Assembly: GCA_902782445.1 (NCBI GenBank)
Contig: CACZNC010000015.1
Location: 1 to 64,000 of the forward strand
DNA length: 64,000 bases
Origin: an uncultured Ruminococcus sp.
GTDB lineage: Bacteria; Bacillota; Clostridia; Oscillospirales; CAG-272
Direction of reading: 5' to 3'
Shown: piece by piece, positions 35,489 through 38,057 of the stretch
Layout: every line of letters begins with the position of its first letter
How positions within the stretch are numbered: position 1 is the stretch's first letter
Made by a program: the position numbers and the translations under genes
Notes under the pieces: model-generated
The model's input: only the letters and a program-made list of their open reading frames with translations
What the model was told of the DNA's origin: nothing
Databases searched by the model: none

Positions 35489-36670
35489 ATGAAACAATTC
35501 AGAATCGGCATTTACGGACTTTGGCGGGGATCGAGTTTCCTCTCCATCCTCGAAGGATTCGACGACGCGGTGATCGCCGCCCTCTGCGACCGGCAGGAGG
35601 ACAAGCTGAAAGCCGCGGGAAAACGCTGTCCCCGGGCGAAGCTCTTCACCGACTATGAGGAAATGCTCGGGGAGGGTCTCGACGCCGTGTTCCTCTGCAA
35701 CTACTTCCACGAGCACGCGAAATGCGCGGTCCGGGCGATGGAAAAGGGGATCGCGGTCTTCTCCGAATGCACCTCCGCCCCGACCCTCGCGGAATGCGTC
35801 GGACTCGTCGAAACGGCGGAGCGCACCGGGGCGAAGTACATGATCGCCGAGAACTACCCCTTCTCCGCCGCTCTGCTGGAGATGAAGCGGATCGCGGATA
35901 CGGGGAAGCTCGGGCGGATCCTCTACGCGGAGGGCGAATACAACCACACCTGCCCGAAGGAGGAGCTTGCCGCCCTGACCCCCGGGAAATACCACTGGCG
36001 CGCGTGGCTCCCCCGGACGTATTACGTCACCCACACCCTCGGGCCCCTCATGCACGTCACGGGACAGATGCCGGTCAAGGTCAACGCCTTCGCGGTCCAC
36101 TCCGACGTGCTCGAAGCATACGACGATTTCCGCCACAACTACGACGCCTTCGCCATGATGAACTGCATCACGGACGGCGGCGCCCTCTTCCGTTTCACCG
36201 GATGCGCGGCGATGGGATCCCCCTCGGGCTACCGCTTTGTCGGGGAGAACGGAAGCTGCGAGACCGGGCGGACCCTCGGCGGGAATGTGAATCTCGTCTA
36301 CCACCACTGGCTCGTTCCGGAGGGAGAGGAGCAGTCCCGGACCTATGCCCCCTCCTGGCCTGCGAACGGGGATCTGGCGGAGAGAGCGGGACACGGCGGC
36401 GGGGATTTCTGGACCGTGTACAACTTCATGGAGTACCTGAGAAACGGGACGGAGCCCTTCTTCAACGTCTACCGCGGCGCGGCCATGTCGGCGGTGGGCA
36501 TCCTCGCGTGGCGGTCCTGCATGGAAGACGGGAAGACCTATTATATCCCCGATTTCAGGAAGCCCGAGGAGCGGGACAAAGTCCGATTCGACGATCTCAC
36601 GCCCTTCCCGGACGAGAACGGGAACGTCACCCTGCCCTGCGCGACGGGAAAACGGGTGAACGGGAGATAA
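35489..36670 (+). CDS. Gfo/Idh/MocA-family oxidoreductase
   Basis: The 393-residue protein has the Rossmann start FRIGIYGLWRGSSF, less canonical than GxGxxG, then the middle region VFLCNYFHEHAKCAVRAMEKGIAVFSECTSA, where the usual EKP motif reads SEC. A C-terminal substrate domain with YHWRAWLPRTYYVTHTLGPL follows. Loss of the EKP lysine may change catalysis or mark an altered cofactor arrangement. It follows the propeller glycosidase with a strong AAAGGAG, and the two probably act on one glycan product. The cwlD-like gene downstream is likely reached by read-through. Confidence 0.8.
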   Translation: MKQFRIGIYGLWRGSSFLSILEGFDDAVIAALCDRQEDKLKAAGKRCPRAKLFTDYEEMLGEGLDAVFLCNYFHEHAKCAVRAMEKGIAVFSECTSAPTLAECVGLVETAERTGAKYMIAENYPFSAALLEMKRIADTGKLGRILYAEGEYNHTCPKEELAALTPGKYHWRAWLPRTYYVTHTLGPLMHVTGQMPVKVNAFAVHSDVLEAYDDFRHNYDAFAMMNCITDGGALFRFTGCAAMGSPSGYRFVGENGSCETGRTLGGNVNLVYHHWLVPEGEEQSRTYAPSWPANGDLAERAGHGGGDFWTVYNFMEYLRNGTEPFFNVYRGAAMSAVGILAWRSCMEDGKTYYIPDFRKPEERDKVRFDDLTPFPDENGNVTLPCATGKRVNGR

Positions 36671-36709: not shown

Positions 36710-36738
36710 GAATACGAAAAGACGCCTCCGCATAGGAT
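36710..36738 (+). promoter_or_regulatory. Candidate sporulation (sigma-E-like) promoter of the cwlD-like gene
   Basis: GAATA (36710-36714), 15 bp, then GCATAGGAT (36730-36738) resembles the mother-cell sigma-E pattern (xxATA, then CATAxxxT). The 14-mer CCGCATAGGATGGA recurs at 48102-48115 with the same 15-bp spacing from an upstream GCATA. No sigma-A promoter is seen close to this gene. The assignment is inferred. Confidence 0.4.
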
Positions 36739-36760
36739 GGACCAAAATCCCGTGCGGAGG
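36725..36760 (+). promoter_or_regulatory. Hairpin that would mask the cwlD ribosome-binding site
   Basis: CCTCCGCA (36725-36732) and TGCGGAGG (36753-36760) form a perfect 8-bp stem that contains the Shine-Dalgarno GGAGG, 6 nt before the ATG at 36767. A transcript starting from the candidate promoter (about 36745) would lack the left arm, while read-through from upstream would contain both arms. Confidence 0.6.
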
Positions 36761-36766
36761 TATTTT

Positions 36767-37537
36767 ATGCGGCGGAAAATCCTCTCCTTTCTCTCGATGG
36801 CGGGCTTCGCCCTGCTGCTCGCGGGATCCTGCTTCATCCTCGGGCGGGGGGCCTTCGAGCTGGCGGAGACCGCGGCGGTCTCGCAGACGGGGGATCCCGG
36901 ACCGGCAGAGGAGTCCCCCGTCCCATCCGCGCCCGTTCCCCTCGCCGTCATAGATCCGGGGCACGGAGGGGAGGACGGCGGAGCTTCGGTGGCGGGGATC
37001 GTCGAGAAGGACGTGAATCTCGCGGTATCGGAGCGGCTCGGGGATCTCTGCACCCTCTTCGGCCTTCCCGCCCTCCTCACCCGGACGGAGGACGAAATGC
37101 TCTACGACCGCTACGGGGATCTTTCGGACTACGCCGGCAAGCAGAAGACCTACGATCTGCGGAACCGGCTCCGGCTGGCGGAGGAATCGGGGGCGAAGGT
37201 GTTCCTGTCCGTCCATCAGAACCAGTTCCCCCAGACGAAATACAGCGGGATGCAGGTCTGGTACTCCCCGAACGACCCGAAAAGCCGGGAGCTTGCGGAG
37301 CGGATCCGGATCTCCGGGCGGATGCTGCTGGATCCCTACAACACCCGGGAGACCAAAGCGGCGACGAACGCGATCTATCTGCTCCACCGGATGCGGATCC
37401 CGGCGGTCCTCGCGGAATGCGGGTTCCTCTCGAATCCCGAAGAGCGGGAGCTTCTCGCCTCGCCGGAATACGAGGGACGGGTCGCCGCCGCGCTGTTCAT
37501 CCCGCTCATGGAGTTTCTCGTCCGGGAGACGAGATGA
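36767..37537 (+). CDS. cwlD: N-acetylmuramoyl-L-alanine amidase, CwlD-like
   Basis: The 256-residue protein has an N-terminal membrane or signal segment (residues 4-25), then an Amidase_3 domain. Zinc ligands and catalytic residues are visible in VIDPGHGGEDGG, Glu in GIVEKDVNLAV, SVHQNQFPQ and AECGFLSNPEE. CwlD of spore formers removes the peptide from cortex muramic acid, a step toward muramic-delta-lactam. Size, single amidase domain and N-terminal anchor match. Other single-domain amidases share these features, so the symbol is probable rather than certain. The start at 36767 is set by GGAGG at 36756-36760. Confidence 0.75.
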   Translation: MRRKILSFLSMAGFALLLAGSCFILGRGAFELAETAAVSQTGDPGPAEESPVPSAPVPLAVIDPGHGGEDGGASVAGIVEKDVNLAVSERLGDLCTLFGLPALLTRTEDEMLYDRYGDLSDYAGKQKTYDLRNRLRLAEESGAKVFLSVHQNQFPQTKYSGMQVWYSPNDPKSRELAERIRISGRMLLDPYNTRETKAATNAIYLLHRMRIPAVLAECGFLSNPEERELLASPEYEGRVAAALFIPLMEFLVRETR

Positions 37538-37586: not shown

Positions 37587-38057
37587 TTACTGCGCTTCGA
37601 CCATGTTGTTGGCCTTCATATAGTCGTAGAGCAGCTTGCCGTGGGTCTGTTCTTCCTTCTGGATGTGGTTGAGGGTCTGGCGGACGTTTTCGTCGCGGAA
37701 TTCGAAGATGCAGGTGTCGTAGAGGTGGGAGGCGTGCTTCTCGGTGGAGAGCAGATCGGAGCAGAGGAAGCGGTCCTTTTCGCAGTCGGCGGAAGCGGGG
37801 GCTTTCGTGAAGGACTGGGGCAGGGAGGATCCGCTCCCGGAGTTCGAGCCGGAGCCGGATGGGGAGGGATTCTGCCCCTTTTCGATGGAGTTCAGGGTGG
37901 AGAGGTGCTGACGCTCGACGGACGCGATGCCGCGGAAGAGTTCTTTCAGCTGGCTGTCCCCGGCCTCCTCGGCGTACTTCGAATACTTCTCGATGCAGAT
38001 CTCCTCCTGGCCTTTGAGATCGGAAACAAGCCCGGTTTCCTTCTGATTGAGATTCAT
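37587..38057 (-). CDS. Spore coat protein CotF-like, ferritin-like fold
   Basis: The 156-residue protein has two helical halves, each ending in a ferritin-like Glu-x-x-His motif: IASVERQHLSTL near residues 44-55 and IQKEEQTHGKLL near 132-143. They are joined by a Ser/Gly-rich linker (about 61-78). This layout matches the CotF family of spore coat or spore-associated proteins in Bacillota. The start follows AAAGGAG. A hairpin CCCCC-GGAAAA-GGGGG lies just upstream of the ribosome-binding site. It sits convergent to cwlD, which strengthens a sporulation theme. Metal binding is possible but not shown. Confidence 0.75.
   Translation of the reverse strand: MNLNQKETGLVSDLKGQEEICIEKYSKYAEEAGDSQLKELFRGIASVERQHLSTLNSIEKGQNPSPSGSGSNSGSGSSLPQSFTKAPASADCEKDRFLCSDLLSTEKHASHLYDTCIFEFRDENVRQTLNHIQKEEQTHGKLLYDYMKANNMVEAQ

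Follow-up and report, generated by a model that had tools for sequence, protein, structure and literature searches.

The closest described systems are found in bacteriophages and in Bacillus subtilis. In the passages of PMC3014915 and PMC2988022 that deal with gene e of phage T4, long early transcripts are described as folding so that the ribosome-binding site (RBS) is hidden, and late RNA escapes this, its promoters lying within the fold's 5′ strand. The same passages describe this arrangement for the related phage late genes soc, I-TevI and segB and for Aeh1 mobE. For the B. subtilis sporulation gene sigG (spoIIIG), the portion of PMC5942855 on its leader RNA presents a large hairpin that was proposed to block translation of spoIIG read-through RNA, and that cannot form in RNA from sigG's own promoter. 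That read-through matters for cell-fate control in B. subtilis is stated in part of PMC5540618.

A sequence-only reading of the DNA considered here had proposed a lock of this type on read-through RNA ahead of a cwlD-like gene, and knew of no report for cwlD. Neither a lock at a cwlD-like gene nor repeated use across the sporulation genes of many Clostridia turned up in full-text searches restricted to open-licence papers. The arrangement extends beyond cwlD, and its logic has precedents in phage T4 gene e and B. subtilis spoIIIG; what is new is the kind of gene, a cwlD-like one, and the recurrence of the design within a sporulation regulon.

The locus and its hairpin

The window, by which we mean the whole 64 000-nt stretch of DNA analysed, belongs to a genome assembly that totals 4.16 Mb over 144 contigs. 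SpoIVA was detected in this genome above its cut-off (603.8 bits), and a SigE-like factor was detected at 295 bits, under the cut-off of 348.6. The gene of interest encodes a protein that passed the Amidase_3 model (PF01520; 128.1 bits against a gathering cut-off of 27). Its best NCBIfam match was TIGR02883 (CwlD) at 173.9 bits, and it is named cwlD-like because this score is under the curated cut-off of 221.55. Four relatives of the gene in named records were all assigned to 'uncultured Clostridia bacterium'. The stop codon of the co-directional oxidoreductase gene upstream lies 41 nt ahead of the −35 ATA, and no terminator-like sites were among those predicted between the end of this gene (36670) and the hairpin. 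Just 3′ of the cwlD-like gene is a convergent gene (37587–38057, minus strand) with a Coat F domain and a rubrerythrin-like match. The features of the locus are as follows.

35489–36670, plus strand: co-directional GFO/IDH/MocA-type oxidoreductase (Pfam PF01408), presumed source of read-through
36710–36714, plus strand: −35-like GAATA, of which ATA is 36712–36714; relatives also show an ATA placed 16 nt ahead of a CATA
36724–36738, plus strand: 5′ (left) arm of the hairpin, including the −10, from folds and an inverted-repeat search
36731–36738, plus strand: −10-like CATAGGAT of a sigma-E-type promoter, kept across the genus
36739–36746, plus strand: apical loop GGACCAAA from the fold, with the predicted +1 at about 36745
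36747–36761, plus strand: 3′ (right) arm ATCC-C-GTGCGGAGGT, including the Shine-Dalgarno (SD), from folds and an inverted-repeat search
36756–36760, plus strand: SD GGAGG, 6 nt ahead of the ATG, read from the sequence
36761–36766, plus strand: U-rich spacer TATTTT between stem and start codon, read from the sequence; a possible terminator tract
36767–37537, plus strand: cwlD-like N-acetylmuramoyl-L-alanine amidase, 256 aa (Amidase_3; best NCBIfam match TIGR02883 CwlD)

The two complementary 8-mers on which the sequence-only reading was built were found where it had placed them, and they extend into a longer inverted repeat with arms at 36725–36738 and 36747–36760 (86 % complementary, gap 8 nt). 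The fold comprises 14 pairs between 36724 and 36761, arranged as 10 pairs, a 1×1 mismatch and 4 pairs and closed by a G-U pair (36724/36761). Its energy is −24.8 kcal/mol (z −5.4) in one fold run and −24.7 kcal/mol (z −6.3) in another, and 0 of 200 shuffles matched its stability in the run with z −6.3. The SD lies entirely inside the 3′ arm of this stable hairpin and the −10-like box entirely inside the 5′ arm. The predicted cost of opening the SD is 13.5 kcal/mol in read-through RNA, compared to 2.4 kcal/mol in RNA from the predicted +1. The element is present as a single copy in the source genome, and 0 Rfam families were matched in a search with it. Positions 36725–36734 of the left arm can pair in another way, at 9 of 10 positions, with the start-codon region TATGCGGCGG at 36766–36775.

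The promoter-like string consists of ATA at 36712–36714, a spacer of 16 nt and the −10-like box. ATA-N16-CATAnnnT serves as the sigma-E consensus, and sigma-K boxes resemble sigma-E boxes. Comparison of upstream DNA found this pattern at a conserved place in many relatives, and because of this recurrence the string in the window is not a lone look-alike. Downstream of it is a sporulation gene, and sporulation genes are present elsewhere in the genome too. Counting 7 nt past the −10 puts the predicted +1 at 36745, and relatives have an A-run at the predicted +1 position. The sigma-E-like promoter of the sequence-only reading is thus where it was said to be and is conserved, and the start that it had put between the arms at about 36745 is predicted to fall in the apical loop.

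Distribution of the hairpin at cwlD

Amidase matches of some kind were present in 115 of the 118 genomes searched, and the DNA upstream of cwlD was fetched for 50 of these 115. A sigma-E-type promoter with 16-base spacing was common among the 50. A strong hairpin was found in the window and in the three relatives nearest to it (G019, G002 and G006), whose proteins are 69–73 % identical (hairpin z −3.5, −5.0 and −5.0, respectively). The inner stem sequences differ among the four species of this clade, yet pairing is retained. Within G006, cwlD is inverted behind a divergent gene and has kept the hairpin nonetheless. The hairpin of G017 is weak (z −0.55) and no better than shuffles, and the more distant congeners G003, G012 and G020 have the promoter without the left arm. 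The sequence-only reading had taken loss of the left arm beside a retained promoter in close relatives as evidence against itself; such loss occurs in these three congeners, while the closest clade keeps the arm.

By eye, G011 has a short CCTCC-AAAAA-GGAGG in the interval from −10 to start codon, and hairpin look-alikes were found at cwlD in other genera, such as those of G038 and G059. The full lock at cwlD therefore appears, from the genomes compared, to be the mark of a small clade, with look-alikes in other genera. Hairpins at cwlD were not associated with the lack of a terminator upstream (Fisher P=1.0). A MAFFT alignment of five hairpins from the genus left the inner stems unaligned and so was not used for pair counts.

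Co-variation of the two arms

In the swap test, the pairing energy between the stretch before the predicted +1 and the leader was compared between the genomes' own pairs and pairs swapped between genomes. If the +1 is correct, the stretch before it is absent from the gene's own mRNA. The test ignores phylogeny, and kinship makes swaps resemble own pairs, which should weaken a signal and not create one.

Own pairs were strongly favoured at four genes, with 0 of 10 000 swaps as good in each. For yabP (70 loci fetched, 67 with a start and promoter, 60 tested) the own and swapped values were −17.75 and −11.35 (z −16.0), and for TIGR04086 (74 genomes had a match, of which 70 were fetched and 46 entered the test) they were −20.74 and −11.21 (z −18.7). 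The z values for cwlD (n=36; swap tests used 40 or 36 of the loci fetched) and spoIVA (29 loci, 28 built, 23 tested) were −5.6 and −4.5. Among class-wide TIGR04086 orthologues, sampled as 30 loci from 151 genomes with a match, z was −8.5 for the 27 tested and −4.9 for the 13 with good promoters. The sequence-only reading had suggested aligning related genomes to see whether both arms covary, and own pairs indeed beat swaps across genera at cwlD, yabP, TIGR04086 and spoIVA.

Moving the segment 60 nt further upstream gave z values of −1.2 for yabP, +0.5 for TIGR04086, −1.4 for cwlD and −0.7 for spoIVA, and a control with the first coding bases gave +1.1 for yabP and +2.8 for cwlD. Ordinary ORFs at the same kind of loci showed a mild excess of own pairing (n=53, z −2.8, 33 of 10 000 swaps as good), and shared composition or common weak pairing therefore accounts for a little, not most, of the swap signal. 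Thirty sites picked solely by a GCATAYACT −10 gave z −1.7, and the nested design is therefore not universal.

Perfect stems of at least 7 pairs occurred above swaps at yabP (8/63) and cwlD (6/40), with mismatches in most sites. When the −10 was kept in place and the arm around it was dinucleotide-shuffled, the signal was weaker, with 22 of 67 yabP and 12 of 49 cwlD sites at P≤0.05. A binary fold criterion, which required 4 of the 5 SD bases to pair with RNA upstream of the +1, was too loose to tell spore genes from controls and was dropped as evidence: it was passed by 26 of 66 ordinary ORFs and by 46 % of the yabP chimeras. Counting crossing pairs instead hardly improved on it.

Recurrence at other sporulation genes

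The pattern CCTCC-N-CATANNNT-N6-30-GGAGG-N4-13-ATG had 42 matches in 36 of the 295 genomes of the family, whereas its reversed form had 1; class-wide it was found in 16 of 391 genomes, with 2 for the reversed form. A CTCCC version, which had been intended as a control, had 23 matches in 20 of the 295 family genomes and caught the same device, paired with GGGAGG. The left arm and the SD change together: a CGGAGG SD accompanies 33 of the 42 CCTCC arms and 2 of the 23 CTCCC arms (Fisher P=4e-8), and a GGGAGG SD accompanies 15 of the 23 CTCCC arms and 4 of the 42 CCTCC arms (Fisher P=5e-6).

Twenty downstream proteins were classified, among them SigK-like, YabP, YqfC-like, TIGR04086, YlmC/YmxH and SpoIVA proteins; those at L046, L048, L152, L155 and L156 had no match above the cut-off. 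Under a stringent score, strong hairpins were present at 37/64 yabP, 44/63 TIGR04086, 14/43 cwlD and 5/27 spoIVA loci. The source genome (G000) has three of them, at the cwlD-like gene, yabP and the TIGR04086 gene. The design is broader than cwlD alone.

The source genome's strong hairpin at the TIGR04086 gene (L306, G000:C13:28827-29487) is directly behind an ORF which we take, by eye, to be YajC-like and which stops 10 bases short of the −35. Its yabP locus (L199, G000:C30:24141-24801, minus strand) reads CATATACT-CTCCC-AAACAAAAG-GGGAG, with the left arm between the −10 and the predicted +1 and not ahead of the −10. The nested promoter and hairpin were also seen at sigK-like sigma-factor genes (L053, L054, L055 and L162, of which L053 and L162 were classified), and a late sigma factor gated in this manner would be of note. 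At L049 (G140:C26, 1489–1553), a perfect 10-bp palindrome has the promoter-SD pattern on both strands; the ORF on the reverse strand is 5 aa long.

Upstream gene context

An association between the hairpin and a co-directional neighbour is a prediction of the read-through lock. Pooled over the genes, strong hairpins were present at 91 of the 149 loci where a co-directional ORF ended no more than 150 nt upstream of the −35, compared to 9 of the 48 loci where none did (CMH P=2e-6). Most of this link is carried by TIGR04086 (44/53 with a co-directional ORF and 0/10 without), and in the other three genes taken singly it was not significant (P=0.26, 0.067 and 0.28).

Crowded bacterial genomes expose genes to read-through, and late developmental genes, for example those for cell-wall hydrolases or for sigma factors, can do harm if they are expressed too soon. 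A small element through which a single promoter escapes a block on all upstream transcription would explain spore genes located directly behind yajC-type genes.

Proposed mechanism and alternative explanations

With this anatomy, a conserved promoter and arms that co-vary, the element upstream of the cwlD-like gene is probably a hairpin that silences read-through and has a promoter nested within it, where the start site, sigma factor, read-through and silencing are all predicted from the DNA. RNA reading through from the upstream oxidoreductase would contain both arms and fold, burying the SD, and would perhaps also be terminated at the U-rich spacer, with the result that growing cells would make no amidase. 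In sporulating cells, RNA polymerase with sigma-E would use the −10 within the left arm and start in the loop at about 36745. The gene's own transcript would then have a 22-nt leader without the left arm, could not fold likewise and would leave the SD free. In favour of the lock as put forward in the sequence-only reading are the conserved promoter, the +1 predicted in the loop, the co-variation of the arms and the co-directional context; the divergent neighbour in G006, the promoters that lack the left arm in G003, G012 and G020, and the lack of a link to upstream terminators count against it.

The alternative that survives best, although we regard it as unlikely, is that the hairpin is chiefly an intrinsic terminator of the upstream gene, with the SD in the stem merely because space is tight; RNA started in the loop would lack the left arm and could not terminate. 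T-rich spacers follow the stem in the window (TATTTT), G019 and G002, while the T-run of G006 is several bases off the stem. At cwlD, the 8 nt past the SD had at least 5 T in 7 of the 20 sites called locked and in none of the other 21, but T-richness was not enriched at yabP (8/43 compared to 3/20), and the pooled T count after the helix was flat (11/100 compared to 4/68, P=0.29), with the helix often swallowing the T-run. By eye, two TIGR04086 leaders (L261 and L314) have a stem with the −10, then a T-rich run and, further downstream, an SD of their own, and so resemble plain terminators. The compensatory changes of left arm and SD fit occlusion of the SD as well as they fit a stem.

It is very improbable that the hairpin is present in every cwlD mRNA, with the true start upstream of the left arm, and that it dampens translation or acts as a sensor. 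There is a precedent in the small RBS hairpin which, in the portion of PMC5942855 that describes it, dampens B. subtilis sigG in that way. Against this, a −10-like box is located in the left arm itself, and among the sites called locked under the loose criterion, 35 of 43 at yabP and 14 of 20 at cwlD have the predicted +1 no more than 2 nt from the loop.

That an SD and a C-rich spacer of the promoter are complementary by mere chance can hardly be the explanation. Chance would account for the control ORFs that pass the loose fold criterion (26/66), for the non-significant hairpin of G017 and for the missing left arm in G003, G012 and G020, but not for the z of −6.3 in the window, the retention of the hairpin in three species or the species-specific co-variation, with its shifted-segment controls. 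The least probable reading is that the palindrome acts as a DNA operator, overlapping the promoter, at which a regulator would bind. The dyad around the promoter is near-perfect, but its inner arms vary freely between species and genes with pairing kept, as those of a sequence-specific operator should not; this idea and that of a repeat element were both rejected on the freely variable inner arms and the single copy in the genome.

The read-through lock is well supported as a selected anatomy, as judged from the compared loci. In our reading, the function most likely to have been selected is to keep upstream transcription unexpressed, with SD occlusion as the rule and termination in some cases, and initiation in the loop would escape both. 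More broadly, we lean towards the view that many Clostridia shield spore genes located behind other genes with one device that has repeatedly re-evolved: a sigma-E promoter in the 5′ arm and the gene's own RBS in the 3′ arm, sometimes also a terminator, so that only RNA started in the loop is translatable. The cwlD-like, yabP and TIGR04086 genes of the source genome would then be three instances of a regulon-wide read-through lock. If the lock is true, it cautions against reading protein expression from RNA coverage alone.

Comparison with known systems

Intrinsic terminators share with this element a GC-rich stem followed by a U-rich tract, but the stem here contains a promoter −10 and the SD of the next gene. 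The small RBS hairpin of sigG, as the relevant portion of PMC5942855 describes it, likewise occludes the SD of a sporulation gene; that hairpin is in the gene's own mRNA and dampens expression 2–4 fold, whereas the own mRNA here is predicted to be without the left arm. The large sigG hairpin as set out there also concerns a sporulation gene that lies behind another transcription unit, with translation of read-through RNA proposed to be blocked. It differs in serving a forespore gene with a sigma-F/sigma-G promoter, whereas here the promoters are of sigma-E type, the genes are others and the −10 is inside the arm. The likeness to T4 gene e, as far as the passages on that gene describe it, extends to a promoter within the 5′ strand of the fold that hides the RBS and to the product, which is also a cell-wall hydrolase. 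The difference is that the phage arrangement concerns late promoters in E. coli and was measured there, whereas here it is predicted, and for many genes of a cellular developmental regulon.
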